From NCBI RefSeq assembly GCF_001528745.1, contig NZ_BCNS01000080.1, positions 62,001 through 126,000 of the forward strand: 64,000 nt of DNA. Direction: 5' to 3'. The translations under genes were made by a program, and so were the position numbers. The notes under the pieces were generated by a model, which saw nothing but the letters and a program-made list of their open reading frames with translations, was not told the DNA's origin and ran no database searches. The DNA is from Marinobacterium profundum (GTDB taxonomy: Bacteria > Pseudomonadota > Gammaproteobacteria > Pseudomonadales > Balneatricaceae). Of this stretch, positions 4,316 through 21,082 are shown in pieces (the first letter of the stretch is position 1; each line of letters begins with the position of its first letter).

Positions 4316-4401
4316 TCGCGATCTCCTTGTTGTTATATAAAACGCTCGATGACAAGTTGGCGCGGGCACAGGCCCGGCCAGCAGGTATGGATGAAACAGC
4401 G

Positions 4402-5886: not shown

Positions 5887-5997
5887 GGTGATTCCTCTCT
5901 CGAAGGCGGTATTCCGGCCCGCCTCTGCTATCAATGCAAAGGCTCTGGCGCCGGACCCGCTTTCCGTTCATTAAGCGTTAAAACTATCCTACCCCCG

Positions 5998-6011
5998 ATA
6001 TAATTATGAAT
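5998..6011. promoter_or_regulatory. Putative operator, AT-rich motif copy A
   Basis: The 14 bases ATATAATTATGAAT are identical to a block at 11880-11893, and the core 12 recur at 12450-12461. Copies A and B lie at the same distance, 114 bases, before the start codons of their operons. The motif is an AATT-N3-AATT type dyad. I infer that the GntR/FCD protein encoded at 12624 binds it. Confidence 0.5.
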
Positions 6012-6199
6012 GCAATATATTTTATTCCGCATAAAGATAGCGGTAACAATCAAACCAAGAGACTGATTTAAAAGACTATTTATCGAATTAAGTGTGGTTT
6101 AGCGGTGTATAAATACGGAAAATAAATGCCTGACAGGCGGTGCTATCGGAGCCAATACAGCGGAATGCCCATCACGAATAGCCAAGCACCCGCCACTGA

Positions 6200-6330
6200 C
6201 GCGACCCCGTGAAAGTGGACACCCAGTTAGGTCGCCCACTCGAAGGCCGCTGGTTTATCCTGATTCCCGGAATTCGCAGGCATATCTTCGAAATTCGCCT
6301 GGGGCTCATTTCCCGGAATTCGCAAGCTCA
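6200..6330. mobile_element. Possible insertion-sequence end remnant with direct repeats
   Basis: The 15-mer TTCCCGGAATTCGCA occurs twice (6264-6278 and 6310-6324, 46 bp apart). A degenerate third copy lies between them, and a GAAAGTGGACACC block is just upstream. Multiple terminal repeats of this general look are found at the ends of IS21-like elements. No transposase gene remains, so this is a weak call. Confidence 0.3.
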
Positions 6331-6382
6331 TTCCAGGCTACACACGACAACCCGTAGGTTGGCAATGAGCGTAGCGAATTCC
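6315..6382. repeat. Long imperfect palindromic repeat
   Basis: GGAATTCGC (6315-6323) pairs with GCGAATTCC (6374-6382). Inside, GCTCATT pairs with AATGAGC, and a CAGGCTAC/GTAGGTTG arm follows. The layout resembles the dispersed extragenic palindromes with a GTAGGTTGG...GAGCG.AGCGAA pattern seen in many gammaproteobacteria. Confidence 0.6.
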
Positions 6383-6543
6383 GACACCCGTAGCGCCCGC
6401 GGTGGAAAACAGTTCAAAGGTGCAAGGTCTGATGTTCGCTACGAAAGCACACCAAGCACCCAGCAGTGTGCTGCTCAGGTATTGAGGCTGCTTCAGGAAA
6501 GGGAGTCAGGAAAAAGGAAGGGCCAACAGAAGCTGACCCAATA

Positions 6544-7452
6544 TCAGCGTCGCAGGCGCGGCGCCAGCAGGGAGTCGAACAGCAGTTGCAGCAAATGAAA
6601 CAGAATGCAGCTGATCACCGCCACGCCGGTGGAGGATCCCAGCCCCACCAGCACAGACACCGCAACGGGCAATGTCTTCTGCGAGGCCGTCAGCATCAGG
6701 GCGCTGCGCTCGCCTGCCTCAAGACTCAGCAGCCGTGCCGCCAGCATGCACAGCAGCAACAGCAGGCCATGCAGCACGAACGCCAGCGCAGCTATGCCGG
6801 CCAGCGCAGTCAGGGATAACTGATAGAGCGCCGCCTCGCTGGCTGACAGGGTGATCCAGACAGTCGCTATTACGCTGACCGTCGGCACCACCCCGAGCCA
6901 GGGAGCCTGTACCAGGGCACCCAGCAGTGGTCGCAGCAGCAGCCCGAGCACAAAGGGCAACAGCACGATTTGCAGCAGCTTGAACAGCAACGGCCAGGGC
7001 GACAGCTCAATGCTGCTGCCCACCAGGGGGCTGAGTAATAACGGAATGGTGAGAATGCCGAGGAAGCTCAGCCCCAGGGTCATGAACAGCGCCCAGATCG
7101 CCTTGCCACCGGCCACCCGGGTCAGCACTATGCAGGATGACAGGGTCGGCGGCACCAGCGCCATCACCAGCAGACCCAGGCCAAGGCTCGTATCCACCCC
7201 GCTGCCGCGCACGATCAGCCAGCCCAGCAGCGGTGACAGCAGCAGGCTGATCAGAGCCGCGGCGACAAAGGTGGCGCCAAAGCGCGGCTCAGGCCTCAGG
7301 CCCGAGAGCCGTGTTTGCATGCCGTTGATCAGGAAGATTAGCGCCACCAGCAGCGCCGGCAGGCCCAGCTGATTGAGCGCAACGCCAGGCCCTGGCAACA
7401 GCAGCGCCGCCACTATGGCAACACAGAGACCCAGTGGCAAAAACCAGACCAT
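6544..7452 (-). CDS. Bile acid:sodium symporter (SBF) family transporter, YfeH-like
   Basis: This is an inner-membrane secondary transporter with about nine or ten helices and 302 residues. The start at 7452 is chosen because AAGGAG lies 7 bases upstream; an upstream start at 7497 would add 15 polar residues. Family features are the Pro-rich break V-P-P-T-L-S-S-C in one half and S-Q-K-T-L-P-V-A in the other, where the two re-entrant helices cross. It belongs to the SBF-like branch that includes E. coli YfeH. The substrate is unknown, and solutes other than bile acids are usual in bacteria. It stands alone, bounded by repeat-rich intergenic DNA on both sides. Confidence 0.85.
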   Translation of the reverse strand: MVWFLPLGLCVAIVAALLLPGPGVALNQLGLPALLVALIFLINGMQTRLSGLRPEPRFGATFVAAALISLLLSPLLGWLIVRGSGVDTSLGLGLLVMALVPPTLSSCIVLTRVAGGKAIWALFMTLGLSFLGILTIPLLLSPLVGSSIELSPWPLLFKLLQIVLLPFVLGLLLRPLLGALVQAPWLGVVPTVSVIATVWITLSASEAALYQLSLTALAGIAALAFVLHGLLLLLCMLAARLLSLEAGERSALMLTASQKTLPVAVSVLVGLGSSTGVAVISCILFHLLQLLFDSLLAPRLRR

Positions 7453-8094
7453 GACACGCTCCTTCGCACCTACCGAATGGGGGACACCGCCAGGCATGTT
7501 TGCGTGATCGGTTGGTAGCGGAGTTTAAAGGGGTGCACCCCATCATGGAAGCATTGGGCGGCACCTGCTATCCGAAACCGGTGATGGGTTGCGCGGCGCT
7601 CATGCCTCGCCGTATCCGTTTTATTCCAGCGGATTACGCCTCTGCACCCATCCTACTCGTCTGAACCGAACTCCGCAGGATGGGTGCAACCGCCCTGCCG
7701 CTTGCCCGACCGGCCCGCACCGGGTTATGCGGCGGTGTAACCCATCATCGATGCTATCAGCCAGCATGCGCGGCCCGAAACCGGTGATGGGTTGCGCGGC
7801 GTCATGCCTCGCCGTATCCGTTTTATTCCAGCGGATTACGCCGCTCCACCCATCCTACTCGTCTGAACCGAACTCCGTAGGATGGGTGCAACCGCCCTGC
7901 CACTTGCCCGACCGGCCCGCACCGGGGTATGCGGCGGTGTAACCCATCATCAATGCTATCGGCCAGCAGGTGCCATCCGGAAAACCTGATGGGTTTCGCG
8001 GCGTAGAAACCCCTCTATCCCCGTTTTATTTTCGCACCGTTACCCACGTCACCCATCCTCCCCATATGCACAGCAACCCGTCATGGCAAACGGA
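7453..8094. other. Intergenic region filled by tandem palindromic repeats
   Basis: No gene is supported here. Most of the 642 bp is the 203-bp tandem duplication and its third partial copy. The open frames in it change between copies without keeping a protein. Confidence 0.75.
7572..8065. repeat. 203-bp tandem repeat with embedded long hairpins (2.4 copies)
   Basis: Copy 1 spans 7572-7774 and copy 2 spans 7775-7977. They are nearly identical, for example both start CCGAAACCGGTGATGGGTTG. A third, diverged partial copy runs to about 8065. Each full copy contains CACCCATCCTAC facing a GTAGGATGGGTG or near-identical arm across an 18-base loop. A larger pairing of GATGGGTT..CGGCG with CGCC...ACCCATC is also present. 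Such GATGGGT/ACCCATC palindromes are typical of dispersed repeats in proteobacteria. Confidence 0.85.
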
Positions 8095-8826
8095 TCAATC
8101 AACCTCGCTGAAGAGTGACCCCCAGCCCTTGATGCGACGGGTATCGGCGCCGGCGAGCTTCATGCCCTTCCACAGGCCAGTAGCGATGCTGTCGTAGATC
8201 GGAATCTGCAGTTCCTTTTCAAGCTGCGCCGCTACACGGGGGCCGCGCAGGTTGGTGCAGAAGATAGTGATGGCATCGGGTTTGCTCTCGGCGGCCACGG
8301 CACGCACCATATCGGCAATGGTTTCCTCGCTGTACTCGGAGAAGGAAAAGTTGCCCTTGTCCCCCAGATGACGCTCGGCGATGCAGTTAAAACCCGCCTC
8401 GCGGTAGTTGGTGATGATTTTTTCCTGCACATCGTCCAGATAGGGTGTCACCAGGGCGAAGTTCTTTACCCGGGTCTTGTGGAAGATTTCATTCAGCGCC
8501 AGCACCGAGGTGCAGGCGGGGATGCCGGTTTCGGCCTGCAGCACTTCACAGAGTGCTTCGTCATCCCCAAAGCCGCGCCAGCCCGATGAAGTGCCGTTCC
8601 AGGTGATGGATTGCACCCGCGCATCGGCCAGCAGGCGTGCCGACTGCAAAAAAGGCTCGTTGTCGAACTGGCTCAGGGCCTGATCACGCAGGGAAATCTC
8701 GGTCACCTTGAGACGGCCAAAATGGGCGCTGACATCCGGCAGGTCGTGCAGCATCTCGGCGGTCAGTGGTTCCAGCACTGTATTGGATGAGGGCGTCAGT
8801 ACGCCCAGCAAGGTACGTTGGTTCAT
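8095..8826 (-). CDS. Maleate isomerase / arylmalonate decarboxylase-like protein (Asp/Glu racemase superfamily)
   Basis: This 243-residue cytosolic enzyme belongs to the Asp/Glu racemase superfamily. The N-terminal T-P-S-S-N-T-V-L-E-P (11-20) is typical of the maleate cis-trans isomerase and arylmalonate decarboxylase branch. The C-terminal-half cysteine is present (C190 in I-F-C-T-N-L-R-G). The N-terminal-half cysteine is absent: the matching loop reads N-G-T-S-S-G-W (77-83), as in arylmalonate decarboxylase, which works with one cysteine. Decarboxylation or isomerisation is thus more likely than two-base racemisation. It is the last gene of the second TRAP operon, 82 bases after dctM. That suggests the transported solute, perhaps a dicarboxylate or substituted malonate, is its substrate. 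Confidence 0.82.
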   Translation of the reverse strand: MNQRTLLGVLTPSSNTVLEPLTAEMLHDLPDVSAHFGRLKVTEISLRDQALSQFDNEPFLQSARLLADARVQSITWNGTSSGWRGFGDDEALCEVLQAETGIPACTSVLALNEIFHKTRVKNFALVTPYLDDVQEKIITNYREAGFNCIAERHLGDKGNFSFSEYSEETIADMVRAVAAESKPDAITIFCTNLRGPRVAAQLEKELQIPIYDSIATGLWKGMKLAGADTRRIKGWGSLFSEVD

Positions 8827-8908
8827 CGATATTTTCCTTCTTCTTTATATAGTCAGCCTGGAGCGCCCGCGGACGCTCCGGGATCAGTGTCATTAAGTAG
8901 TGGACGGG

Positions 8909-10189
8909 TTAATACCCCAGGGCACGGGGCAGCGCGGTCACGATATCGGGGAAGATCCAGCACAGCGCCAGCACCAGATACTGCAGCACGATAAAGGGCC
9001 AGACCGATTTCAGCAGTTCCCCGATGGATATCTTGGAAATACCGCACATCACGAACAGCAACACCCCCACCGGTGGCGTCATCATGCCCACCACCAGATT
9101 CATCACGAACAGGAAGCCGAAGTAGATCGGATCTATGCCGTAGGCCAGCGCTATGGGGGCGAACAACGGTGCCAGCATGATGTAGGCCGCATTCGACTCC
9201 AGGAACATCCCCACGATCAGCAGCATGCCCATGACCAGCGCCAAGAACACCATAGGATCGGCGGTAAAGCCTTGAATGAATTGCGACAAATGCAGCGGCA
9301 GCAGATCCAGCGTGAACACGAAAGTCACGGGTTTCGCGAAGGCAATCAGCGCCCCCACTACCGCAGACGTCAGGGCGGCGCGGAACATGCAGCCTGGAAT
9401 GGCGGCGATTTTCAGCTTGCGAGTCACGAACAGCCCGACCAGCAGGGAATAGATCACGGCGATGGCCGCGCCCTCGGTGGCGGTGAAGACCCCGCCAACG
9501 ATGCCGCCGATTACCAGTACCGGCATCAGCAGAATCACCCCGGCGCGGCGGCTCTGACGCAGTACATTGCGCCAGCTGAAGGGATCGCCGGTGGGCTCAT
9601 AGCCTTTGCGATATGACATCCAGGTCGCCAGACCCATCATGCCGACGGTCAGCAGAATGCCCGGCACTACACCGGCCATAAAGAGACCACCCACCGAGAC
9701 GCTGGAGCCAGCCATCAGGGCATAAACGATCATGGCCGCACTGGGCGGAATGATAGGCCCAAGGTTCGATGCCGAGGCCACCACGGCGGAGCCGAAACCG
9801 TTGTCATAATGCTTGCGCAGGGACGGCATCATGGTGGTGCCCAGGGCACTGGCACCGGCTACGGCGGCACCGGTGACCGAGGCAAGACCCAGCCCGGACA
9901 GAATGGTCACATGGGCCAGCCCGCCCTGCACCCGGCCCACCACGGCATTGGCGAAGTCGATCACACGCTGCATGATCTGGCCGCCCACCATAAATTCGCC
10001 GGCCAGCATAAACAGCGGAATCGCCATCAGCGGGAAGGAATTGACCGCATGCATCATGCTTTGGGGCATCAGCGCCAGATCGATATCACCGAAAACAAAG
10101 GCGCCGAGCGCCGAAAAACCCAGCGCAAAGGCCAGCGGCATGCCCAGCAGCGCCAGCACGAAGAATATGCCAATGGATACAAGAACCAT
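8909..10189 (-). CDS. TRAP transporter large permease (DctM family)
   Basis: This is the large membrane subunit of the second TRAP system, 426 residues and full length. It has the usual dozen or so hydrophobic helices. Family motifs include L-G-P-I-I-P-P-S-A-A-M in the middle and M-M-T-P-P-V-G-V-L-L-F-V near residue 380. Its start overlaps the stop of the small permease gene by one base (TAATG on the minus strand), which implies coupling. A small inverted repeat (GGAGCG/CGCTCC, about 8862-8880) separates it from the racemase-superfamily gene that follows. Confidence 0.95.
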   Translation of the reverse strand: MVLVSIGIFFVLALLGMPLAFALGFSALGAFVFGDIDLALMPQSMMHAVNSFPLMAIPLFMLAGEFMVGGQIMQRVIDFANAVVGRVQGGLAHVTILSGLGLASVTGAAVAGASALGTTMMPSLRKHYDNGFGSAVVASASNLGPIIPPSAAMIVYALMAGSSVSVGGLFMAGVVPGILLTVGMMGLATWMSYRKGYEPTGDPFSWRNVLRQSRRAGVILLMPVLVIGGIVGGVFTATEGAAIAVIYSLLVGLFVTRKLKIAAIPGCMFRAALTSAVVGALIAFAKPVTFVFTLDLLPLHLSQFIQGFTADPMVFLALVMGMLLIVGMFLESNAAYIMLAPLFAPIALAYGIDPIYFGFLFVMNLVVGMMTPPVGVLLFVMCGISKISIGELLKSVWPFIVLQYLVLALCWIFPDIVTALPRALGY

Positions 10190-10734
10190 TATTCATCCCC
10201 CCAGACATGGGTACCCTGCCACACCAGAAACGCCAGGTGCAGGAAGGCATGGGTCATGGAGATAATCACCGCGATATAGAAAGCCGAAACGCTGAGTTCC
10301 ACCGTGGGCATCATCTCGCCCCAGGCGTCCTGCGCCACCAGCACCGCCTGCCACATCACCAGCAGCATCAAGCCACCGCTGAGCGTCAGCATCAGCCGCA
10401 TCAGACTTTCGCGAATACGCGAGCCGAACTGGTTGATCAGGATATCGATACCCACGTGTATGCCTTTCTTGATGCCGTGGGGCAAGGCCAGAAAGATCGA
10501 CCAGACGAAGGCCAGACGCGACATTTCATCGGCCCAGTCCAGCGAGTCACCAAAGAAATAGCGCAGCACCACCTGGGCCGTTACCAGCCCCGTCATCAGG
10601 GTCATCGCCAGCACAATAAGTCCATACGACAGTCCGTCGACGGACTTGAGCATCTGCTGATAGCGCCGCGCCAGCGGGGAGACCCTCAGGGCCTCCTCCG
10701 CCACCGGGGCTCCGCTAAAAAGCCGATCCGTCAT
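10189..10734 (-). CDS. TRAP transporter small permease (DctQ family)
   Basis: This is the small membrane subunit of the second TRAP system, with 181 residues and four hydrophobic segments near 36-56, 75-95, 117-137 and 152-172. The family signature W-A-D-E-M-S-R-L-A-F-V-W lies at about residues 62-73, followed by a G-I-H-V-G-I-D stretch. It is joined to both neighbours by one-base TAATG overlaps (dctP stop with its start, its stop with the dctM start). The three genes are therefore translated as a unit. Confidence 0.94.
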   Translation of the reverse strand: MTDRLFSGAPVAEEALRVSPLARRYQQMLKSVDGLSYGLIVLAMTLMTGLVTAQVVLRYFFGDSLDWADEMSRLAFVWSIFLALPHGIKKGIHVGIDILINQFGSRIRESLMRLMLTLSGGLMLLVMWQAVLVAQDAWGEMMPTVELSVSAFYIAVIISMTHAFLHLAFLVWQGTHVWGDE

Positions 10735-11768
10735 TACTGCACTTCCGCCAGTACGGCATCAATCACGTCGCTACCAATACGCTCCTTCAGCGCCTCTATC
10801 ACGGGTGCTGTGCGCTCACGCATCTGCTGACGCAGTTCGGGGGAAACCTGAACCAGCTCCATATTGGATGCCACCAGTTTGTCCCGCGCAGCGGTGTCTT
10901 CATCGGCAGCCTTGGTCCGCTGCCAGGCAACGGCTTCACCCATGGCTTCGCGCAATGCCTGCTGTTCAGGGGCATCGAGCTTGTCGAACTTGCGCTTGTT
11001 GGCCACCACCACGATAAAGTCAAAGAAGTGCGAAGTATCGGTCAGGTAGGTCTGCACCTCGTTGAACTTCTGCGTCTCGATCACGCTGTAGGGATTTTCC
11101 TGGCCATCGATCACGCCCTGCTGCAGCGCCGAGTAGACCTCATTGATGCCCATGGATACCGGGCTTGCACCCAGAGCACGGAAGGTAGAGAGGTGCGTTT
11201 CATTGGGTTGCAGTCGAATCTTCAAACCATCGAAATCCGCCAGAGTGCGGATCGGATGCTGACTGTTGGTGACCTGACGCGAGCCCAGTTCCATAAAACC
11301 CAGAGCCACAAAGCCCTTCTCAGCCAGTTTCTCGTTCAGCAGCGTCCCCACCGGGCCATCCACCACCTTGAAGGCTTCCTCACGGTTGGCGTACACAAAG
11401 GGCAGGCTCACCGCCTCCAGCTCCGGCACTATGCGGGACAGGTAGGACGCCCCCACCCAGGTCATTTCCAGTACACCGGAGCGTACCTGGTCGATATTTT
11501 CCTTGGCGCCGCCCAGCTGCATGGCCGGGAACACATCCACGGTCAGCGCCCCCTTGGATATCTCCGGCAGACGCGCCTTGAACTGCTCCATCGCCACACT
11601 GCTGGAGTGGGTGGTGGCAAAGTTACCCGCCAGGCGCAGGTTTTTTTCCGCCAGGGCGCTGGCCGAGAACAGCGTCGCCGCCACCAGCCCGGTCGCCAAG
11701 GTTGTACGGACACAGGCCCGTGTCAGATTATCCAGTCGGGATGGAGCCTTGTTATTATTTCGCATCAT
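10734..11768 (-). CDS. TRAP transporter substrate-binding protein (DctP family)
   Basis: This is the periplasmic solute receptor of the second TRAP system. The frame stays open to 11807, but AAGAGGA lies just before the two consecutive ATGs at 11768 and 11765, so translation begins there (344 or 343 residues). A long N-terminal signal peptide ends near S-A-S-A-L-A. The core has the usual F-D-G-L-K-I-R-L-Q-P-N-E (ligand-binding Arg) and G-A-S-P-V-S-M motifs. It is the first gene of the operon and is transcribed divergently from the gntR gene at 12624. Copy B of the AT-rich motif lies 114 bases upstream. The ligand is unknown. Confidence 0.93.
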   Translation of the reverse strand: MMRNNNKAPSRLDNLTRACVRTTLATGLVAATLFSASALAEKNLRLAGNFATTHSSSVAMEQFKARLPEISKGALTVDVFPAMQLGGAKENIDQVRSGVLEMTWVGASYLSRIVPELEAVSLPFVYANREEAFKVVDGPVGTLLNEKLAEKGFVALGFMELGSRQVTNSQHPIRTLADFDGLKIRLQPNETHLSTFRALGASPVSMGINEVYSALQQGVIDGQENPYSVIETQKFNEVQTYLTDTSHFFDFIVVVANKRKFDKLDAPEQQALREAMGEAVAWQRTKAADEDTAARDKLVASNMELVQVSPELRQQMRERTAPVIEALKERIGSDVIDAVLAEVQ

Positions 11769-11879
11769 GATTCCTCTTGGTTTCCAGCATATTACCGCCA
11801 ATCTCACCGGCCAGGCCCCCCTGTCGCTTGCTGGGTTCAGGGGGCTAACTGGCCAGATCGATCAGCAGTTCTTCACAAT

Positions 11880-11908
11880 ATATAATTATGAATTTCTAAT
11901 TACGAACA
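11880..11908. promoter_or_regulatory. Putative operator, AT-rich motif copy B with degenerate second copy
   Basis: ATATAATTATGAAT (11880-11893) is identical to copy A at 5998-6011. A weaker copy, CTAATTACGAAC, follows at 11897-11908, 15 bases on. This pair sits 114 bases before the dctP start, in the divergent region shared with gntR. I infer binding by the GntR/FCD regulator. Confidence 0.5.
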
Positions 11909-12059
11909 ATATATACACCAGCAGTTTTGGGATGACAAGCCATCATGCCCTTTTGCGTTGTCCCTTTTTTTCCAGTTCGTCCGGCTTGCACGGCAACAGT
12001 TTTTGGCCATCGCCTTGCCCCATATTTACCTGAAAGGCACGCAACATCCGTGCCTCGCC

Positions 12060-12292
12060 CTGCCCTTCCCCCTAGCACCTCGCCTCCTCGCACCTCGCCT
12101 CCTCGCACCTTTCTCCTAGCCCCTTTCCCCTCGCCTCTTTTTACCTCGCCTCGCACCTCGCCCCTAGCCCCTAGCCCCTTTTATCTTGCTCTTCCTCGCA
12201 CCTTTCTCCTCGCCCCTCGCCCCTCGCCCCTCGCCCCCATGCCCCCATGCCGCCATGCCGCCATGCCGCACCATAACGGAGCGCAAGAACAC
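12060..12292. repeat. C/T-rich heptamer-periodic repeat tract
   Basis: The tract is built of 7-base units such as TCGCCCC (four in a row), CCTAGCC, and CATGCCC/CCATGCC/GCCATGC. The block 12161-12203, read on the minus strand, is nearly identical to 13338-13372 and 37022-37075 on the plus strand. The unit length is not a multiple of three, and no protein is kept. Confidence 0.85.
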
Positions 12293-12314
12293 TCCACATG
12301 AACATACGGAATTA

Positions 12315-12331
12315 ATAATTCAATATTTTTA
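12315..12331. promoter_or_regulatory. AT-rich block D shared with the racemase operon promoter
   Basis: These 17 bases, ATAATTCAATATTTTTA, recur exactly at 20918-20934 upstream of the hydantoin-racemase-like gene. The block is related to copies A-C (TTCATAATT core). It is a possible regulator site, or part of a shared promoter. Confidence 0.4.
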
Positions 12332-12449
12332 ATTTACTTTAATATCGTAAGCCATTGTTTTTAAAGTACTAAAAAACAAAAAATCGGCGAGCGCCCCCCA
12401 TTGAGGCACGGACAGATTGACCTGCACCTAAGGCGTCACTATTATCAAC

Positions 12450-12461
12450 ATAATTATGAAT
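12450..12461. promoter_or_regulatory. Putative operator, AT-rich motif copy C upstream of gntR
   Basis: ATAATTATGAAT is the same 12-mer as in copies A and B and lies 163 bases before the gntR start codon. This fits autoregulation by the GntR protein. Confidence 0.45.
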
Positions 12462-12623
12462 TAAGTATTGCCAATCATGGTTTCGAGCGAACGCAGCAAC
12501 AGATGTTCGACACCGACAAACCGCACAGATCAGGCTGACAGGAACCGAAAGAGCCCGTTTTCAGGCGCTTTGCCGCCTTTGACCCCGGCCGGTTTGCGCG
12601 TCACAGAACAGAGGAAGAGAGGC

Positions 12624-13313
12624 ATGAATCAAAGCGTCCGGCTCACACACAGCGTACGGCGGCGCCTGCTGCACGAAGATGTTGCCGAACATTTGCGGAC
12701 CATGATCACCGAGGAAACCCTGGCTGAAGGCAGCCGGGTGGATGAGGTAGAACTCTGTGCCCTGCTGGATATTTCCCGCACGCCGCTGCGCGAAGCGCTC
12801 AAGGTATTGCAAAGCGAAGGCCTGATCAGCATCGAACCCCACCGTGGCGCCCGCGTCACCAAGGTGAACGAAGCCCAGCTCAACGAGCTGTTTGACGTTC
12901 TCGGCGGGCTGGAACGCCTGGCCGCAGAACTTGCCGCCCAGCGTGCCAGCGATGCAGAACTCGACGCCTTCAGACTGCTGAACCTGGAAATGGAAGCGCG
13001 CTACCGCGCCCGTGATCCCCGCGCCTACTTCGCCCTCAACCTGCAGGTCCACCAGCAGGTGATAGACCTGTCGGGCAACCGCCAGCTGCAGCGGGTACAC
13101 AGCCTGATTAGCGGCCGTACCCGCCGCGGCCGCTATTTCTCCACCCTGTCGGACGCCCACTGGGATGAATCGGTGCAGGAACACCAGGCGCTGGTCGAGG
13201 CTCTGCTGGCCCGGGACAGCCTGCGCGCCGGCCGTATTCTGTTCGACCACGTCAACAAGACCGGCGATACCATCCGCAGCATGATGCAGCCCCCGGAAAC
13301 GGCGCGGGCCTGA
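12624..13313 (+). CDS. GntR family transcriptional regulator, FCD subfamily
   Basis: This is a ligand-responsive DNA-binding protein of 229 residues. The start at 12624 follows GAGAGG; the frame is open further upstream to 12468 but has no better start. The winged helix covers about residues 13-80, with L-D-I-S-R-T-P-L-R-E-A-L as the recognition helix. An all-helical FCD domain follows (about 88-215), the part that senses carboxylate ligands, often with a bound metal. The gene is divergent from the second TRAP operon and has related AT-rich motifs before it. The same motif precedes the dihydropyrimidinase operon, so it may control more than one operon. Heptamer-repeat elements flank the gene in opposite orientation. 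Confidence 0.92.
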   Translation: MNQSVRLTHSVRRRLLHEDVAEHLRTMITEETLAEGSRVDEVELCALLDISRTPLREALKVLQSEGLISIEPHRGARVTKVNEAQLNELFDVLGGLERLAAELAAQRASDAELDAFRLLNLEMEARYRARDPRAYFALNLQVHQQVIDLSGNRQLQRVHSLISGRTRRGRYFSTLSDAHWDESVQEHQALVEALLARDSLRAGRILFDHVNKTGDTIRSMMQPPETARA

Positions 13314-13319
13314 CGGCCG

Positions 13320-13375
13320 CCAAGGAGCGAGGTGCGAGGTGCGAGGAAGAGCAAGGTGAAAGGGGCTAGGGGTTA
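13320..13375 (+). repeat. G-rich heptamer-periodic repeat element after gntR
   Basis: It begins 7 bases after the gntR stop. Units such as CGAGGTG (two in a row), CGAGGAA, GGGCTAG and GGGTTAG follow in 7-base steps. The 35-base core is nearly identical to one at 37022-37075 and to the minus strand of 12161-12203. Confidence 0.8.
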
Positions 13376-13482
13376 GAAACAGCCAACAAACAAACAAATA
13401 ACAATGCCGGAGGGGCTGGCTGAGTCATGGTAGAGACTCAGCCAGGCTGAAAACATCGCCAAGCCTGTGGTGGATAGCTCGC

Positions 13483-14601
13483 TCAGGCGCTGGCTGCAGA
13501 GGCATGTTCGGCAAAGTAGCGCTGGGCATTATCCAGATCTGCCCGGGGAGCCAGCATGGCAAATTCGAACTCGCGCAACGCGGTACCGCTGCGTGCACGC
13601 AGGACCCAATCGGGGTTGGCCAGTGCCGCCTTGCCAAGGGCGACCAGGGTCACCTGATGTTCATCCAGCAGATGTTGTGCCTGAGCAGCTTGCCCAACAC
13701 CGCCATTGGCGATCACCGGCAGGCCGCTGTAACGCGCCGCGAGGCTCGCCAGTGAAGCAGTGCCCTCGAATGCCGCCTGCTCGGCACCAGGCTCGGTAGT
13801 GTGAATATAATCAGTCCCCGCCTGGCCAATCGCCGTAAAGATCGCCGCAGCAGCGGCCTCCCCCTCAGGCCAGAGATGCTGGTCGTCGTTTACTTTCTTC
13901 TGTGAAATACGCACGCCAATCACGAAGTCTGCGCCTGTCGCCGCGCGCACCGCAGCGATAACCTCAAGGATCAGGCGCACACGATTTTGTGGGGTACCGC
14001 CATAGCCATCGGTGCGCTCATTGCTGCCGGCCGACAGAAACTGATCCAGCAAGTAGCCATTGGCGCCGTGGATTTCAACGCCGTCAAATCCTGCGGCCTG
14101 CGCCCGCTGTGCAGCTTGCGCAAAGCCCACGATAGCAACATCGATATCGGACTGAGTCATTGCTTTGGGGGTTGCATAGCCACCCTCTCCATCGTAGAAG
14201 CCCATCTGTTGCCCCTTGGGCTTAACGGCCGAAGGACCCGCCGTATCGCTATTAAAACCATTGAACTGTGACAGGGCACCGGCATGCATCAGCTGTGCAA
14301 TACTGCGGGCGCCAGCGGCATGCAGCGCCTGATTAAGCGGCTTCCAGCTCTCAGCCTGTGCCTGACAGGTCAGCCCCGGCTGGCCCTGGTAACCCTGGCT
14401 GTAGACCCGGTCCGTATAGAGACCTTCGGTAATGATCAGACCAAAGCCACCCTCGGCAAAACTATGGTAGTAGTCGAGCATCTGGGGGGTGAGCAGGCCT
14501 TCGGTGCCGGCGCTAACGCGGGTCATGGGGGCAACCGCAAGTCGGTTACCAAGGGACAGTCCGCCGAGGCGAGCGGGGGTAAACAGGCTGTTATCAGTCA
14601 T
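13483..14601 (-). CDS. NADH:flavin oxidoreductase, Old Yellow Enzyme family
   Basis: This is an FMN-dependent ene-reductase (372 residues, TIM barrel) of the NemA/OYE type, acting on activated C=C bonds of enones, nitro compounds or maleimides. The paired H178 and N181 that bind the substrate carbonyl are seen in H-G-A-N-G-Y, with Y183 as proton donor. R-T-D-G-Y-G-G follows as in the family, and the FMN loop P-M-T-R lies near the N terminus. A LysR-type gene is transcribed divergently 100 bases away with a dyad between them. This is the usual setting for OYE genes regulated by reactive electrophiles. The natural substrate is not known. Confidence 0.92.
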   Translation of the reverse strand: MTDNSLFTPARLGGLSLGNRLAVAPMTRVSAGTEGLLTPQMLDYYHSFAEGGFGLIITEGLYTDRVYSQGYQGQPGLTCQAQAESWKPLNQALHAAGARSIAQLMHAGALSQFNGFNSDTAGPSAVKPKGQQMGFYDGEGGYATPKAMTQSDIDVAIVGFAQAAQRAQAAGFDGVEIHGANGYLLDQFLSAGSNERTDGYGGTPQNRVRLILEVIAAVRAATGADFVIGVRISQKKVNDDQHLWPEGEAAAAAIFTAIGQAGTDYIHTTEPGAEQAAFEGTASLASLAARYSGLPVIANGGVGQAAQAQHLLDEHQVTLVALGKAALANPDWVLRARSGTALREFEFAMLAPRADLDNAQRYFAEHASAASA

Positions 14602-14636
14602 TTCCAGACTCCAATGTATTCAAGGTGGAGCCATTC

Positions 14637-14660
14637 TATTCATTGGCAATTAGTTGAATA
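14637..14660. promoter_or_regulatory. Candidate LysR operator between OYE and lysR
   Basis: TATTCA (14637-14642) faces TGAATA (14655-14660) across 12 bases, in the 100-bp divergent gap. This is the form of a LysR-type dyad. Confidence 0.4.
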
Positions 14661-14701
14661 ACCCCAATAATGTTAAGTCACCTTTAACGATTGGTAGTGC
14701 A

Positions 14702-15592
14702 ATGGCAACACTGAATCAACTGGAAAGCCTGCGAATCTTTCGCGCCATTGTAGAGGCAGGCAACTTTACCGCCGCCGCGCAGCGCCTCAACTGCACCCCG
14801 GCCTGGGTGTCGAAAACGGTTAACCGGCTCGAAGCCGAATTGGACAATACCCTGCTGCAACGCAGTACGCGCCATATTCGCCTGACTAGCGCCGGCGAGC
14901 GCTGTTACCAGCATGCGGTGCAGCTGCTCGATGGCTGGAAAGCACTGGAGGATGACCTGTCCCAGGACAGGCAGCTTGCCGCGGGCAAGGTCAGAATCAG
15001 CATGCCCATGTCGTGGGGGCTGAGCTACTTTGCCGGCATGGCGACACGCTTTATGCAGCAGTACCCCGATATTGAGCTGGATGCCCAGCTGGGGGATGAG
15101 TTCGTCAGTGTGCAGGAGGAACGCTATGATCTGGTGCTGCGCCTGGCCAGCGAACTGTCGGACAGCTCACTTATCTGCCAGCGGCTGGCGACTTACCAGC
15201 ATATTGCCTGTGCGGCGCCGGCCTATATAGAACGCCACGGCCAGCCCGCGACACCAACAGACATTGCCCGGCATCGGTGCCTGGTCTTCTGCCGCGGGGC
15301 CCAGATCTCGCCCTGGCGCTTTAACGACGGCCAGGTTGTTTACCCACCGACACGCATGCAATCGAACAACAGCCTGCTGTTGCGTGAGGCATTAGTGGCT
15401 GGCGAAGGCATTGCCCTGATCCCCGAGTTTCTGGTGACCGAGGACATAAAGCTCGGTCGGCTCGCCCCTGTATTGAGGGAGTACCAGAGCCCACCGCTGC
15501 ATCTCTATGCGCTGATGGTGAAAATGCCCCACCGACCTTATCCGCTACAACTGTTTCGCCAGTTTCTGCGCCAGCAGCTCGCCGGCGCCTGA
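14702..15592 (+). CDS. LysR family transcriptional regulator
   Basis: This is a DNA-binding regulator of 296 residues, the typical length. The ATG at 14702 is preferred over the in-frame TTG at 14654 because the helix-turn-helix then starts at the usual distance (residues 5-62, F-T-A-A-A-Q-R-L-N-C-T-P-A-W-V-S-K). The substrate-binding domain covers about 90-290. It falls in the branch often placed beside quinone or ene-reductase genes. It is divergent from the Old Yellow Enzyme gene, its likely target. Confidence 0.92.
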   Translation: MATLNQLESLRIFRAIVEAGNFTAAAQRLNCTPAWVSKTVNRLEAELDNTLLQRSTRHIRLTSAGERCYQHAVQLLDGWKALEDDLSQDRQLAAGKVRISMPMSWGLSYFAGMATRFMQQYPDIELDAQLGDEFVSVQEERYDLVLRLASELSDSSLICQRLATYQHIACAAPAYIERHGQPATPTDIARHRCLVFCRGAQISPWRFNDGQVVYPPTRMQSNNSLLLREALVAGEGIALIPEFLVTEDIKLGRLAPVLREYQSPPLHLYALMVKMPHRPYPLQLFRQFLRQQLAGA

Positions 15593-15615
15593 CTCAAGCC
15601 GATCATGGTGGCTGG

Positions 15616-16914
15616 CTAACCGATCAGGGACGGCAACCACATGGAGATGGGTTTAACGTAAGTTACCAGCAGTATCACGACCACCTCGCAGAGCACGAAC
15701 GGGATGGCATAGCGCGCCGCCGTGGCGAAAGGCACCTTGCCGAGCTGCGAGGCCAGGAAGAGCCCCACACCCACAGGCGGTGTCAGATGCGCCATGGACA
15801 GGTTCACCGTCAGCACCGCACCGAAATGCACCAGATCAAAGCCAATCGCCAGCAGAGTGGGCTTGAACAGCGGCACCAGCAGGTACATGGCGGCAATGGG
15901 CTCAAGGAAAGCCCCGGACACGATCAGCACCAGATTGAAGAACAGCAGAATCAGAATGGCGTTACCGCCGCTGATATCCAGAATGTAGTCGTTGAGCATG
16001 GTAGCCAGGCCCTGGGTCTGCATCACCCAGCCATAGACGGCCGAGGTCGCGATCAGCAGCACTATGACACCGATGGTACGGCCGGACTCGAAGATCACAT
16101 CGGGCAGCTGGGCAAAGGAAATCTGCTTGTACACAAAGCGATCGACCAGAAACAGATAGACCACGGCCACCGCCGCCGCTTCAGTCGCGGTGAAGATACC
16201 GGTATAGATACCGCCCAGGATAATCACCGGCGCCATCAGGCCCCAGAAGGCATCCTTGAAAGCGGCGAAAAATGTCGCCAGGTTGCGATCCTCGATATCC
16301 GCGCCCTTGTAGCCCCGTTTCTTGGAAATAAAGAGGACATAGCCACCCAGGATCAGCAGCATGGCCAGGCCCGGCCCGACACCGGCGGCAAACAGCTTGG
16401 GGATGGAGGTTTCGGTAATAACGCCATAGATGATAAAGCCGATGCTCGGCGGTATGACCACGCCAAAGGTGCAGCCGGCAGCGACCACGGCCACGGCAAA
16501 ACCACGGTCATAGCCGCGCTCCACCATGGGCCCGACCAGAAAGCTCAGCGCCGCCACTGTGGCGATGTTGGAACCGGACATCGAGCCCAGCATAGCGCCT
16601 GTGACCAGCACCGTGAGTGCAAGACCGCCCGGCAAGGGCCCCAGCATCATCTCGGCCAGGCGCACCAGCTTGATGGCGATGCCGGTGCGGGTAATCAGGT
16701 TGCCGGCAATAATAAACAGCGGTGTTGCCAGCAGCGGGAAAGAGTCCAGCGAGCCGGAAAAGATATAGGGCACCACACTCAGCGGCGCGATTTCAAACAC
16801 CACAAAGGCCATCAGGCCAGCAAGGCCGATGGATACAAAAACAGGGACGTTCAGGGCCAGAAAGCCAAAGAACACCATCAGGCCGATAATGGCCGGGTTA
16901 GTCAGTAACTGCAT
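15616..16914 (-). CDS. TRAP transporter large permease (DctM family)
   Basis: This is the large membrane subunit of the third TRAP system, 432 residues and complete. It contains A-G-C-T-F-G-V-V-I-P-P-S-I-G in the middle and H-L-T-P-P-V-G-V-G-L-F near residue 375. It lies 42 bases after the small permease gene rather than overlapping it. It is the last gene of the operon headed by the hydantoin-racemase-like gene, and its 3' end converges with that of the lysR gene. Confidence 0.95.
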   Translation of the reverse strand: MQLLTNPAIIGLMVFFGFLALNVPVFVSIGLAGLMAFVVFEIAPLSVVPYIFSGSLDSFPLLATPLFIIAGNLITRTGIAIKLVRLAEMMLGPLPGGLALTVLVTGAMLGSMSGSNIATVAALSFLVGPMVERGYDRGFAVAVVAAGCTFGVVIPPSIGFIIYGVITETSIPKLFAAGVGPGLAMLLILGGYVLFISKKRGYKGADIEDRNLATFFAAFKDAFWGLMAPVIILGGIYTGIFTATEAAAVAVVYLFLVDRFVYKQISFAQLPDVIFESGRTIGVIVLLIATSAVYGWVMQTQGLATMLNDYILDISGGNAILILLFFNLVLIVSGAFLEPIAAMYLLVPLFKPTLLAIGFDLVHFGAVLTVNLSMAHLTPPVGVGLFLASQLGKVPFATAARYAIPFVLCEVVVILLVTYVKPISMWLPSLIG

Positions 16915-16956
16915 AATTCAATCACTCGTAAGCTGGGGAAACCTGCAGGCGGCAGC

Positions 16957-17469
16957 TCAGTTCTGCTCATCTACCAAAGGCTTGTCGATTCGGTAGGCGC
17001 CCAGAATGAGACCTTGAATCGTGCGCAGGAAGGCCAGCGAAAACGCCAGGAACATGCCGCCGTTGATTACCCAGACCGGAATGCCGGTGGTCATGCTGGA
17101 CTGGCCACTCGCCAGGGCGCGCAGGGTGGTGCCGTAACTGAGCCAGGCCAGAAAACCGATAAACACCAGCATGCAGATGCCAACAATGACCTCGGTCACG
17201 CGCTGCCAGGCCGGTGGCAGCTTGTCGACCAGCAGCGGAATGCCGCCATGCTGGCCGGTTTTGCAGGCTGCTGCTGCGCCAAACAGGGCCCCCAACAGGA
17301 ACATGTAGCGGGCCAGCTCCTCCGACCAGGCAATGGAGTAGTGGAAAAAGAAGCGCGACAGCACCCCCATGAAGATCAGCACGACAATAGACCCGCAGAG
17401 CGTGACGACCGTAAATTTTTCCAGCCTGTCGAGCCAGCTGGTAGCTTTTGCAGCGACATATCTCATCAT
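16957..17469 (-). CDS. TRAP transporter small permease (DctQ family)
   Basis: This is the small membrane subunit of the third TRAP system. Translation most likely starts at one of two adjacent ATGs at 17469 and 17466, preceded by TGGAGA; the frame extends to 17496. It has about 170 residues and four hydrophobic segments. The family signature W-S-E-E-L-A-R-Y-M-F lies after the first helix pair. It is placed between dctP and dctM of the same operon. Confidence 0.93.
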   Translation of the reverse strand: MMRYVAAKATSWLDRLEKFTVVTLCGSIVVLIFMGVLSRFFFHYSIAWSEELARYMFLLGALFGAAAACKTGQHGGIPLLVDKLPPAWQRVTEVIVGICMLVFIGFLAWLSYGTTLRALASGQSSMTTGIPVWVINGGMFLAFSLAFLRTIQGLILGAYRIDKPLVDEQN

Positions 17470-17585
17470 CAGTCTCCAGTGGATGCGCATAGCCATGCTG
17501 TCAGGAATGCAGCCTGATCATTTCACACCAGACTCGCTCAGGGCGGGCAGCACCCGCCCCGGCTTAGCGTCTCAGTTAACAGCCC

Positions 17586-18623
17586 TCAGTTCAGCGCCTG
17601 CACCTGTGCTTCGACTTCAGTCACCAGCTCTGCCCCGACCTTTTCCTTGAAGGTGGCATAGACAGGCGCCACCTTGGCCTTGAAGCCCGCCAGCGCCTCG
17701 GCAGATGGCGTCTGGATAGTCACGCCCGCCTCTTCCATCACCTTGGCCAGATCCGCCTCTTCGCTGGCGGCCACCTCACGCTGATAGATCATGGCATCCT
17801 TGGCGGCCTGGCCCACCAGCGTCTGGTCTTCCGCCGACAGGCGGCTCCAGAACACATTGCTGGCCAGCATGCCGATGGCTTCGAAGGAATAATTCACCAT
17901 GGCAATGTTCTTGCTGACTTCATAGAAGCGCGATGAATAAATCAGCGGAATCGGAGAAATGCCGCCATCGATGGCGCCGGCCTGGAGCGCGGTAAATACT
18001 TCGGCAAAGCTCATGGCCACCGGCACCGAGCCAATGGCAGACCAGGAGTCGAGGTACAGCTCCAATCCCGGCGTGCGGATCTTCACGCCGCTGATATCAT
18101 CAACTGTCTCGATCGGGCCTGGGTTGGTATAGAGCTGAAAGAAGCTGCCGGAACCCCAGGCCAGGGTGCGAATCCCCTGGGATTCGAGTTTTGCAGAGAG
18201 TCTGTCGCCCACAGGGCCATCCATCACCGCCATGGCCGCATTGGTATCAGGGAAGATCCACGGCATGGATACCACCACGAAGTCAGGGTTGAGCTGGCTC
18301 AGCCAGGGAGTCGATTTCATGATGATATCGATGGCGCCGGCCTGGGCCATTTCCAGCTCCACGCGGTCATTGCCGCTAACCAGAGTACCGTTGGCATAGA
18401 CTTCAACCTTGTGTTTTGCGCCGCTGCGCTCCTCCACCAGCTCCTTGAATCGGTTGGCCGCCTTCACCCAGTTGGACGAATCCGACACAGTGGTGCTCAG
18501 GCGAATGGTCGCGGCGCTGGCGGAACCCGCAGCACAGAGAGCACCAGCGGTGATAACCGCAGCCGCCAGCAGGCTCTTTACGCGAGACTGTTTAAAAGCT
18601 GGCTGTTTCAGAGTTACGTTCAT
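17586..18623 (-). CDS. TRAP transporter substrate-binding protein (DctP family)
   Basis: This is the periplasmic receptor of the third TRAP system, 345 residues. The start at 18623 follows CAGGAG; the longer reading to 18665 is less likely. A signal peptide with a hydrophobic core at about residues 17-33 ends at G-S-A-S-A-A. The conserved I-S-G-V-K-I-R-T-P-G motif carries the ligand-binding arginine. V-A-M-S-F-A-E-V-F-T-A-L-Q is typical of the family. It lies 65 bases after the amidase gene in one operon, so its ligand is probably an amide, ureide or the acid formed from it. Confidence 0.94.
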   Translation of the reverse strand: MNVTLKQPAFKQSRVKSLLAAAVITAGALCAAGSASAATIRLSTTVSDSSNWVKAANRFKELVEERSGAKHKVEVYANGTLVSGNDRVELEMAQAGAIDIIMKSTPWLSQLNPDFVVVSMPWIFPDTNAAMAVMDGPVGDRLSAKLESQGIRTLAWGSGSFFQLYTNPGPIETVDDISGVKIRTPGLELYLDSWSAIGSVPVAMSFAEVFTALQAGAIDGGISPIPLIYSSRFYEVSKNIAMVNYSFEAIGMLASNVFWSRLSAEDQTLVGQAAKDAMIYQREVAASEEADLAKVMEEAGVTIQTPSAEALAGFKAKVAPVYATFKEKVGAELVTEVEAQVQALN

Positions 18624-18688
18624 GGTGTTACTCCTGTTGCGTTCAGTGTAGATGGCACAGGCCATCAGGTTTTTGGTGACTGTTTAAC

Positions 18689-20122
18689 TCAGCCGAAGGG
18701 CCATTTGGGCACGGCAAAGGCATGGCCCAGCGCCGCTTCTATCAGGTTGCCAAGCGCCAGTGCTCTGGCGTCCTGAAAACGTGGCACTATTATCTGCGCC
18801 CCCATCGGCAGGCCATTACTGGCCAGACCACAGGGCACCGAAAGGGCGGCATGAAAACTGTGATTGATGATCGGGGTAAAGACCGCGTGACCCCGGGCCG
18901 ATACCGCCTGGCCGTCAATGGTGTTGGGGCCAAGCTCAGTAAAGGCCCAGGCGGTACAGGGCGTGGTGGGGGTCAGCACCGCATCGCAGCACTCAAACAG
19001 CTGGGCCAGTGAGCGCTGTAACTGCGCTCGCTCAAAATACGCAGCTGCTACCGCGGTCCCGGACAGCGCCATGCCCTGCTCTATCTGGGCGCCAATATCG
19101 ACATCGAATTGATCTGGATTCTGGCGCCACTGCTCGCCGTAGAGCGCCGCTAATCCGGCAAACTGCAAGGTGGCAAAGGCTGCTTCACCAGCGCCCGGCG
19201 GCCAGACGGGATCGCGTTCTTCCACGAAGGCGCCGGCATCGCGCAGCAGCACCGCCACTTGCTCTATCGCCGCCGCTACCTCGGGCTCTACCGGTACGTC
19301 GAGCCCAAAGCGCGGGCTCAGAGCGATGCGCAGCCCTTTGACCGAGGCCAAAGCCGCGGCCGGATCATAGGCAGGCAGACCGACAGGGGCATCGGCATCC
19401 CGGGCATCAGCGCCCGCCAGTACCGGCAGCAGCAAGTTCAGATCGGCGACGGAGCGGCTCATCAGACCAATGACGCCGTTACCAAACAGCGGCTCCTGAA
19501 AACCGACCGGATGCGCAATCAATCCTGCGGAGGGCTTGAAGCCCACCACACCCGTATGGGATGCCGGGCGGCGCGTGGAGCCACCGCCATCGGTACAGAG
19601 CGCGAAAGGCCCGAGCCCCGCAGCCACTGCTGCCGCTGCCCCGCCTGAAGAACCGCCCGGCGTCATGTCCAGATTCCAGGGGTTGCGGGTCGGACCGTAA
19701 ACTTTATTCGTGGTCACGCCCTTGCAGGCAAATTCCGAGCTGTTGCTGTGACCCAGTATCAGCGCACCGGCCCGACGCAGGCGCTCTACCGCCACGGCAT
19801 CCGCAGGCGCCACAAAGTCGGCAAACAGCCGGGAACCCTGGGTGGTCTTTTGCCCCTGCACCCAGATAGTGTCCTTGACGCTAAAGGGCACACCCAGCAG
19901 GGGCGCGGGCTGCCCCGAGCGCTGCAAGGCTTCGAGCGCCGGCAGCTGACTAAGCACCGCCTGGGCATCGAAACGAATCAGCGCGTTGATCTGCGGATTA
20001 CGCTCGGTCACCGCGGCAATAAAGGCCTCGGCCACCTCGGCCAGGCTGAGCTCCCCCCGGGCGATGATCGCCGCAAGGCTCGCGGCATTCAGTGCTGGCA
20101 GACTCTGGGCAAGATGCCTCAT
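18689..20122 (-). CDS. Amidase signature family hydrolase
   Basis: This 477-residue cytosolic amidase (GatA/AtzF-like fold) hydrolyses an amide or N-carbamoyl bond. The Ser-cisSer-Lys triad can be placed: K83 in S-V-K-D-T, the Gly/Ser loop G-G-S-S-G-G (cis-Ser 158/159) and the nucleophile S182 in G-G-G-S-T-R. The usual T-D-T-G-G-S-I-R is here T-D-G-G-G-S-T-R, a mild change. It overlaps the upstream racemase-like gene by one base (TGATG), so the two are coupled, and the TRAP genes follow. It is not part of a GatCAB set, since gatB and gatC are absent. The substrate is unknown; hydrolysis of a carbamoylated or amidated product of cyclic ureide opening fits the context. Confidence 0.9.
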   Translation of the reverse strand: MRHLAQSLPALNAASLAAIIARGELSLAEVAEAFIAAVTERNPQINALIRFDAQAVLSQLPALEALQRSGQPAPLLGVPFSVKDTIWVQGQKTTQGSRLFADFVAPADAVAVERLRRAGALILGHSNSSEFACKGVTTNKVYGPTRNPWNLDMTPGGSSGGAAAAVAAGLGPFALCTDGGGSTRRPASHTGVVGFKPSAGLIAHPVGFQEPLFGNGVIGLMSRSVADLNLLLPVLAGADARDADAPVGLPAYDPAAALASVKGLRIALSPRFGLDVPVEPEVAAAIEQVAVLLRDAGAFVEERDPVWPPGAGEAAFATLQFAGLAALYGEQWRQNPDQFDVDIGAQIEQGMALSGTAVAAAYFERAQLQRSLAQLFECCDAVLTPTTPCTAWAFTELGPNTIDGQAVSARGHAVFTPIINHSFHAALSVPCGLASNGLPMGAQIIVPRFQDARALALGNLIEAALGHAFAVPKWPFG

Positions 20123-20868
20123 CAGCTGCGGTGCTCGATACGGGCTGCCAGGGCTGCACTGAGCCCAGTCGTATCCTTGGCGCCGGGACGTCTATAGGTA
20201 CCGGTTTCCGGCGCTTTCAAGTTCAAACTAACCAGCGCTTCGATCTGCTTGATGGCCGCCGCACAGCAATCGATCATCGGCACAGGCACGCGGTGGCGGA
20301 TACGATCCGCCAGCCCCGACAGAGGTGCACCGGCCAGCACTATCACATCAGCGCCGTTTTCCCGTACCGCTGCCAGGGCCAGTTCCGCCAGCAGGTCTTC
20401 CTTTTCCTCCCGCACTGCACCTATAGACTTGAACGGCTGATCCAGCATGCGGATAGCGCAGCAGCGGTCCTGCAGCTGATTCCACTCAACACATTCCTGG
20501 TACCAGGCGCCCAGTGCGGTGGAAAAGGTCACTATGGCGAATTTTTTGCCCAGCATGCAGGCGGTCAGCATGCCCGCCTCCGCCAGACCGACGATGGGAA
20601 TATCAAACAGCTCCCGCGCCGCTCCCAACCCAGGATCCCCGAAGGCCGCCAGAATGGCGCCATCTACCTGATCATGCTGCTGCGCCAGAATCTCCAGCGC
20701 AGCACTGGCGCCGATCACAGCTTCAGCCCGGTTGGCGATATAAGGCACACCGAAGGCACCCGTGGCAGGGATGATCTCGGTGCCCACCGCGGCATAGCGC
20801 GTTGCCACTTCGGTGAGCTGAGTGGTGAGAACTTCCGATGTATTGGGATTGAGCAAAAGGATTTTCAT
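20122..20868 (-). CDS. Hydantoin/allantoin racemase-like protein lacking both catalytic cysteines
   Basis: This 248-residue protein matches the hydantoin racemase (HyuE/HpxA) branch of the Asp/Glu racemase superfamily. It starts N-P-N-T-S near residue 7 and has the D-P-G-L motif at 78-81. In characterised racemases one catalytic Cys precedes F-G-D-P-G; here it is A75. The second Cys, in L-G-C-A-G-M, is replaced in L-A-G-A-P-L by G180 or its neighbour. Both acid/base residues thus seem lost, while fold motifs are intact. It may bind its ligand without racemising it, or use other chemistry. It is the first gene of the amidase-TRAP operon. Confidence 0.82.
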   Translation of the reverse strand: MKILLLNPNTSEVLTTQLTEVATRYAAVGTEIIPATGAFGVPYIANRAEAVIGASAALEILAQQHDQVDGAILAAFGDPGLGAARELFDIPIVGLAEAGMLTACMLGKKFAIVTFSTALGAWYQECVEWNQLQDRCCAIRMLDQPFKSIGAVREEKEDLLAELALAAVRENGADVIVLAGAPLSGLADRIRHRVPVPMIDCCAAAIKQIEALVSLNLKAPETGTYRRPGAKDTTGLSAALAARIEHRS

Positions 20869-20910
20869 AGGCGCCCCTGTAGCGGGTGTTTTTCATGATA
20901 CTGCCACCAT

Positions 20911-20934
20911 ATAATTCATAATTCAATATTTTTA
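20911..20934. promoter_or_regulatory. Putative operator/promoter block E of the racemase-amidase-TRAP operon
   Basis: The block starts 43 bases before the start codon. It contains ATAATTCATAAT (20911-20922), a near-complement of the A-C motif core. It also contains the 17-mer ATAATTCAATATTTTTA (20918-20934) found exactly at 12315-12331 near gntR. Confidence 0.45.
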
Positions 20935-21082
20935 GTTATGAGTTATAGATCTAAGCCTATGCACTATCCCCCGAACCCACCACAGGCTCGGCGAACCTTG
21001 CCGCTACCCGCCGGATAGGCACAGCGCAGCGAAGCCCATCAAGCCGCCAGCCCACCCACCAATGCGCCATGCCTGGCGTACA

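Follow-up and report, generated by a model that had tools for sequence, protein, structure and literature searches.

A shared A/T-rich palindrome, very probably an operator, before three catabolic operons and a GntR/FCD gene of Marinobacterium profundum

In a stretch of 64,000 nucleotides of the Marinobacterium profundum genome (the window; contig C80, positions 62001-126000, of an assembly of 5,637,742 bases), five places that precede three operons for catabolic enzymes and tripartite ATP-independent periplasmic (TRAP) transporters, and a gene for a GntR/FCD regulator (gntR), prove, when laid side by side, to be one palindrome, AATT-NNN-AATT with A/T-rich arms. Very probably the encoded protein, GntR, or a sister regulator binds this palindrome and so controls the operons together, and GntR alone or mainly is the likely binder. 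The system is ordinary in kind and well supported.

The palindrome and its positions

One copy lies before each of operons 1, 2 and 3 and two lie before gntR. The fullest form of the motif is ATATAATT-NNN-AATTATAT. The operon 1 site reads ATATAATT-ATG-AATGCAAT, with one arm altered and the centre AATT-ATG-AATG, as against an intact AATT-NNN-AATT in the other four of the five. The remaining sites read ATATAATT-ATG-AATTTCTA (operon 2), ACATAATT-ATG-AATTAAGT (gntR, proximal), ACGGAATT-AAT-AATTCAAT (gntR, distal) and ATATAATT-CAT-AATTCAAT (operon 3). The sites, the associated promoters and gntR are listed here, with scores in bits from the matrix described below:

5998-6016, candidate operator of operon 1, ATATAATTATGAATGCAAT, score 28.9
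5986-6015, minus strand, putative operon 1 promoter: -35 TTGCAT (6010-6015), 18 nucleotides, -10 TAGGAT (5986-5991)
11880-11898, candidate operator of operon 2, ATATAATTATGAATTTCTA, score 22.8, with an additional AATT half-site adjoining
11910-11938, minus strand, putative operon 2 promoter TTGTCA-17-TATATA, recognised by eye, a conserved block in 5 genomes
12306-12324, distal gntR site, palindrome GAATTAATAATTC, score 25.8, 142 bp before the proximal site
12417-12445, plus strand, gntR promoter TTGACC-17-TATTAT, a good one of sigma-70 type, from a promoter scan (10/12 matches)
12448-12466, proximal candidate operator of gntR, ACATAATTATGAATTAAGT, score 27.2, starting 2 nucleotides after the -10 hexamer
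12624-13313, plus strand, gntR, GntR/FCD (FadR-subfamily) regulator of 229 amino acids, the proposed binder and autorepressor
20909-20927, candidate operator of operon 3, ATATAATTCATAATTCAAT, score 32.2
20930-20948, second, weaker palindromic box, TTTTAGTTATGAGTTATAG, 21 bp from the operon 3 site, score 11.6

The operon 1 site covers the -35 element and the spacer of the putative promoter, which was recognised by eye as a conserved block; the promoter scan found nothing above threshold before this operon. The operon 2 site lies directly downstream of the putative TTGTCA-17-TATATA promoter, which the scan did not report, and before operon 3 no convincing promoter was found, the sole scan match there facing the opposite direction.

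Within the window the 14-mer ATATAATTATGAAT is matched four times at up to two mismatches, against 0.12 expected, and none of 100 shuffles reached four. Genome-wide statements here and below are based on pattern searches together with individually examined stretches. The 10-mer AATTATGAAT occurs seven times in the whole genome, four of them at the window promoters named above (reversed control, six). The motif is above the background frequency that, according to the original prediction, would speak against a regulon. That prediction had reported the 14-mer at 5998-6011 and 11880-11893, a core ATAATTATGAAT at 12450-12461 and a 17-base block ATAATTCAATATTTTTA shared by 12315-12331 and 20918-20934. 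All these matches are exact, while the single palindrome behind the five places had been missed. The palindrome before operon 3 is at 20909-20927, and the block comprises half of it and half of the distal gntR palindrome, plus a shared CAATATTTTTA flank. An equal distance to the first start codon, also claimed, holds for the two 14-mers in the window (111 bases to the ATG, 114 to its last base) and is not conserved; with the operon 1 distance ranging from 104 to 113 across seven genomes, we judge it a coincidence.

Conservation within the genus

The comparison set comprised seven Marinobacterium genomes (G000-G006), the one analysed here included. The cluster is mostly syntenic in them; in G004, operons 1 and 2 are on one contig and operon 3 is on another. 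As the original prediction would have it, the sites recur before orthologous genes: before operon 1, before operon 3 and on the gntR side in seven of seven genomes, and near operon 2 in five of seven, the copy of G006 being degenerate (score 14.4). In G004 and G005 the near site of operon 2 was not seen, the closest site being some 360-380 bp upstream of dctP. Invariant alignment columns are concentrated in the sites as follows:

Operon 1 site, 19 of 19 columns in 7 genomes; flanks 6/60 and 13/60
Proximal gntR-side site, 15 of 19 in 7 genomes; flanks 0/60 and 1/60
Operon 3 site, 14 of 19 in 7 genomes; flanks 8/60 and 20/60
Operon 2 site, 15 of 19 in 5 genomes; flanks 33/60 (upstream columns that include the likely promoter) and 5/60
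Distal gntR site, 8 of 19 in 7 genomes; flanks 2/60 and 4/60

The gntR-side site of G005 is the complete palindrome ATATAATT-ATG-AATTATAT. The distance from the proximal site to gntR is 155-157 bp in G000-G003, 311 in G005 and 397 in G006. The weak box at 20930-20948 is near-identical in G000, G001, G003 and G006. The spacing of the two gntR sites (142 bp in the window) is 141-143 bp in five genomes, 145 in G004 and 150 in G005, and a loop between them is possible.

ATTCATAATTATATCG occurs once in each of six of the seven genomes and twice in G005, always within the cluster. The exact 19-bp operon 1 site is found once in each of the seven and in none of 109 other genomes of the family; with two mismatches it is matched in 7 of the 109, against 12 matches of the reversed control by our count. 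With at most 25 candidates scored per genome, GntR matches at E <= 1e-42 were obtained in 7 genomes among the 116 of the family, each belonging to this genus; in G004 the match is a paralogue only.

Matrix ranking and sites elsewhere in the genome

A consensus search with ATATAATTNNNAATTATAT at three mismatches was rejected as too loose and replaced by a matrix. It gave 29 places against 8 for the reversed control in the M. profundum genome itself, and no excess in G005 (9 against 9), G006 (10 against 13) and G002 (7 against 13). The matrix is symmetric, and its 26 training sites all come from the six relatives, none from M. profundum itself. It places the five window sites at ranks 1-5 (32.2, 28.9, 27.2, 25.8 and 22.8 bits; next place 11.6), whereas 60 simulated windows yielded a mean best score of 9.1 and a highest of 18.0; since the training sites are orthologous to those tested, this ranking measures persistence and not independence.

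When the 44 genomic places of AATTNNNAATT (a list that leaves out any site whose arm is altered, that of operon 1 itself included) were scored, the top five were four window sites and C140:52452 (29.9), followed by 19.5, 18.1, 17.3 and lower values. The site at C140:52452, unseen by the matrix in training, lies about 130 bp before a gene of the FAA-hydrolase family (PF01557). A block GAATTAWTAATTAC stands before the orthologue in all six genomes that yielded the gene, downstream of a kept TTGACAG; orthologues were taken at E 1e-60, and none was found in G004. The neighbours of this gene and its site (L132, 2953-2971) encode a multicopper-oxidase/cytochrome c protein and a metallo-beta-lactamase-fold protein, PqqB-like by eye.

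The fifth genomic copy of AATTATGAAT is found about 98 bp ahead of ureA (PF00547), within the weaker site ATTGCATTCATAATT (L108, 4394-4412), which is kept in G000-G003, four of the seven genomes. A sixth precedes a second TRAP operon, the DctP of which is 71% identical to that of operon 1. In all six genomes with an orthologue (none was found in G003) this operon is preceded by TAATTCATTATTCATAATTGG or a near variant, whose fit to the matrix is weak to moderate (10.5 to 23.9). Because a GntR relative of 36-37% identity adjoins this operon in G002 and G006, the site may belong to that regulator. The seventh, at sucC on C117 (gene named by eye), scores 2.5 and was taken as chance. In G004, a copy of gcl, for glyoxylate carboligase, beside dctP has a gntR-type site scoring 26.1 at 30 bp upstream of its start; this copy (L082, G004:C25:1-999) is cut by the contig end and was named by its near-identity to pieces matching TIGR01504. 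In G005 (C10, near 64.4 kb) a gcl remnant lies between the site and gntR. Further candidates by score are C104:811 (19.7), C210:4805 (19.5) and C129:67715 (19.1). A place at C98:57123 (L160, near 324; score 18.1) lies about 98 bp before an open reading frame for a substrate-binding protein of the OpuAC family, glycine betaine type.

The regulator and alternative binders

GntR has the two domains of its class, an N-terminal winged helix-turn-helix (PF00392, 54.2 bits, 1.1e-14, residues 17-78) and a C-terminal FCD effector domain (PF07729, 92 bits, 4.8e-26, residues 88-211). Among NCBIfam models for named regulators, 18 matched (PhnR, NanR, CsiR, LldR, GlcC, HutC and others) and none exceeded its cut-off, the best being TIGR03338 with 108.9 bits against 271.5. 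Relatives of 64-95% identity are encoded in five of the six other genomes of the genus; plasmid-encoded relatives (1583 records) are all below 60%, the best among the matches listed having 44.7%, and relatives in the PDB are distant (best 7xp0, 2.2e-20). In our own alignment, placed on what we take to be the numbering of E. coli FadR, GntR has Val42, Pro54 and His73 at the specificity positions, as against the Arg, Ser and Gly that go with G/C. Val, Pro and His there would fit A/T at site positions 6 and 14 of PMC4494728.

Operators of the FadR (FCD) subfamily, such as those of FadR, PdhR, LldR and GlcC, follow TKGT-N3-ACMA with a usual half-site distance of 3 nucleotides (PMC4494728). The window palindromes resemble these operators in being A/T-rich, in their 3-nucleotide half-site distance, the spacing of FadR type, in their presence at the regulator's own gene as well as at catabolic genes, and in the weaker extra boxes next to a main site; they differ in that AATT-N3-AATT carries no conserved GT/AC boxes, TT/AA replacing GT/AC in all five.

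We consider it likely that GntR alone or mainly binds the operators. Its gene is central in the cluster and has two sites of its own, and these, with the 3-nucleotide centre and the residues at the specificity positions, were counted in its favour. The original proposal of a single GntR/FCD protein joining the three operons in one regulon is supported at the level of sequence comparison. Several observations weigh against it. The candidate operator departs from its family in lacking the GT/AC boxes; AATTNNNAATT by itself shows only a slight excess in the genome (44 places against 31 in the reversed control); and the matrix ranking speaks for persistence of the sites and not for their independence. 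The ureA site is absent in G004, G005 and G006 (3 of 7). Membership of gcl in general was rejected: a good site is lacking at all 12 full gcl loci above the cut-off (highest score before a start 12.7, in G002) and at the four gcl pieces that lie at contig ends in G004 and G005 (best 10.8). G004 keeps the sites at operon 1, at operon 3 and beside gcl, and only a GntR of 51% identity was found there; the contigs on either side of the expected gntR position, C25 and C56, both stop at it, so that loss and an assembly gap are both possible.

That 51% protein represents a paralogue, found in the M. profundum genome at C80:41778-42407 (L050), 52% identical to GntR there and 50-53% over the range. The operator might belong to it, or two sister regulators might share the sites, which we think rather improbable. 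The paralogue occurs in all seven genomes against six for the GntR orthologue, is the one found in G004 where the sites persist, lies next to where operon 1 ends in both G004 and G005, and has a recognition helix, SRTPLREALKVL, identical to that of GntR. Its own promoter, on the other hand, has a weak and different element, TATAATT-NNN-TATTC, which may in part be a -10 TATAAT and scores about 12 in G000 and G001 and 6.8 in G004; in M. profundum the gene is about 20 kb outside the window. This element is seen at the paralogue promoter in G000, G001, G004 and G005. Binding by another regulator of the region, the LysR protein at 14654 or the second window GntR at 26062, was considered and has little probability. 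T-N11-A is a loose LysR pattern, with which the motif arms are also compatible, but this LysR gene is missing from the cluster (the region examined) in G003, G005 and G006, where the sites persist; and the TRAP genes beside the GntR at 26062 have no good site, the best, near DctP4, scoring 6.5.

Two readings would dispense with a specific regulator. The sites are A/T-rich and near promoters, as a core-promoter or upstream A/T element would be; this is very improbable, however, given that the long form of the motif is rare in the genome and that the same palindrome is kept at varying promoter positions: in the spacer (operon 1), after the -10 (operon 2) and on the -10 (the FAA-hydrolase gene), all by eye, and after the -10 at gntR by the scan. 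Chance resemblance of A/T-rich intergenic DNA could draw on the modest count of AATTNNNAATT alone and on the full consensus at three mismatches, which summed over the seven genomes gives 109 places against 71 for the reversed control, with no excess in three of them. It is contradicted by the shuffles, the 10-mer count, the matrix ranking, the column conservation and the distribution of the 19-bp operator; conservation in place across seven genomes already refutes it, and its probability is negligible.

Genes of the cluster

The operons, all on the minus strand, and the basis of each assignment are as follows:

Operon 1, part in the window, 1152-5886, dihydropyrimidinase first
4402-5886, dihydropyrimidinase
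3110-4315, class-V aminotransferase, best NCBIfam match BhcA, below cut-off
1941-2978, TRAP DctP
1152-1871, DctQ, named from the open reading frame translation
Operon 2, 8095-11768
10734-11768, TRAP DctP, family search
10189-10734, DctQ, translation and gene order
8909-10189, DctM, translation and gene order
8095-8826, arylmalonate-decarboxylase/Asp-Glu-racemase-like protein, family search
Operon 3, 15616-20868
20122-20868, Asp/Glu/hydantoin racemase family protein, family search
18689-20122, amidase, family search
17586-18665, TRAP DctP, translation and gene order
16957-17496, DctQ, translation and gene order
15616-16914, DctM, translation and gene order

The dihydropyrimidinase/D-hydantoinase of operon 1 exceeds two NCBIfam cut-offs, and the aminotransferase scores 462 with the BhcA model, the cut-off of which is 650; judging from the relatives, the operon probably continues outside the window with DctM and amidase genes. 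The arylmalonate-decarboxylase-like protein of operon 2 is over the Pfam cut-off and under the NCBIfam one, and the racemase-family protein and amidase of operon 3 were identified by Pfam. Between the operon 2 dctP and gntR lies a low-complexity tract of CCCCTCGCC-type units (12060-12260), instead of which G002 has a GGGCAA tandem repeat. An old-yellow-enzyme/LysR pair (13483-15592) separates gntR from operon 3; it is found there in G000, G002 and partly G001, and not in G003, G005 and G006, the interval being unassembled in G004.

Proposed mechanism and significance

We propose that a dimer of the GntR/FCD protein (12624) would bind the (A/T-rich)AATT-NNN-AATT(A/T-rich) palindrome at sites that overlap or closely follow the promoters of gntR and of the catabolic/TRAP operons, and would repress them until a carboxylic metabolite derived from the substrate that is taken up occupies its FCD domain. 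Repression is suggested by operators that cover or follow promoters, and the proximal one, directly behind the gntR promoter, offers a place for autorepression and suggests it. Small ligands, carboxylic acids among them, are bound by members of the FadR subfamily (PMC4494728). The regulon would also include the FAA-hydrolase-family gene and, in some species, ureA and a gcl copy. The ureA and gcl sites would be in keeping with urea and glyoxylate as products, so that a hydantoin or ureide is the likely substrate, plausible by gene content only.

BioR controls biotin genes, and HpxS acts in allantoin/purine catabolism, where a GntR regulator controls a ureide-type pathway that includes a racemase. 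The proposed Marinobacterium system resembles HpxS in this control, in the type of pathway and in the racemase, and differs from it in gene sets. In PMC4494728, both are FadR-subfamily members; HpxS has a half-site distance of 2 nucleotides, unlike the 3 found here, and BioR (TTATMKATAA) is an exception to the GT/AC consensus. The proposed GntR system shares with BioR the subfamily and an A/T-rich palindrome that departs from this consensus; palindrome and spacing differ. A literature search, covering few subscription journals and thus weak evidence of novelty, returned no paper that joins a GntR regulator, a TRAP transporter, a dihydropyrimidinase and a binding site; among the matches listed on Marinobacterium GntR proteins, Marinobacterium regulons and GntR regulators of hydantoin or hydantoinase genes, none was relevant by title and opening of the abstract.

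More tentatively, the sister FCD regulators of the genus may have left the GT/AC code for an A/T-only AATT-N3-AATT, with paralogues on slightly shifted operators (AATT-N3-TATT at the paralogue promoter, TAATTCATTATTCATAATTGG before the second TRAP operon) that together would wire the use of ureides, urea and glyoxylate; we hold this doubtful. A concrete regulon can now be proposed for an uncharacterised FCD regulator, linking three TRAP transporters of unknown substrate to hydantoinase, racemase and amidase enzymes. The extra sites, which tie this regulon to an FAA-hydrolase-family enzyme, to urease and, in one species, to glyoxylate carboligase, narrow the substrate search, and an operator outside the GT/AC rule would be helpful in working out the protein-DNA code of FadR-subfamily regulators.

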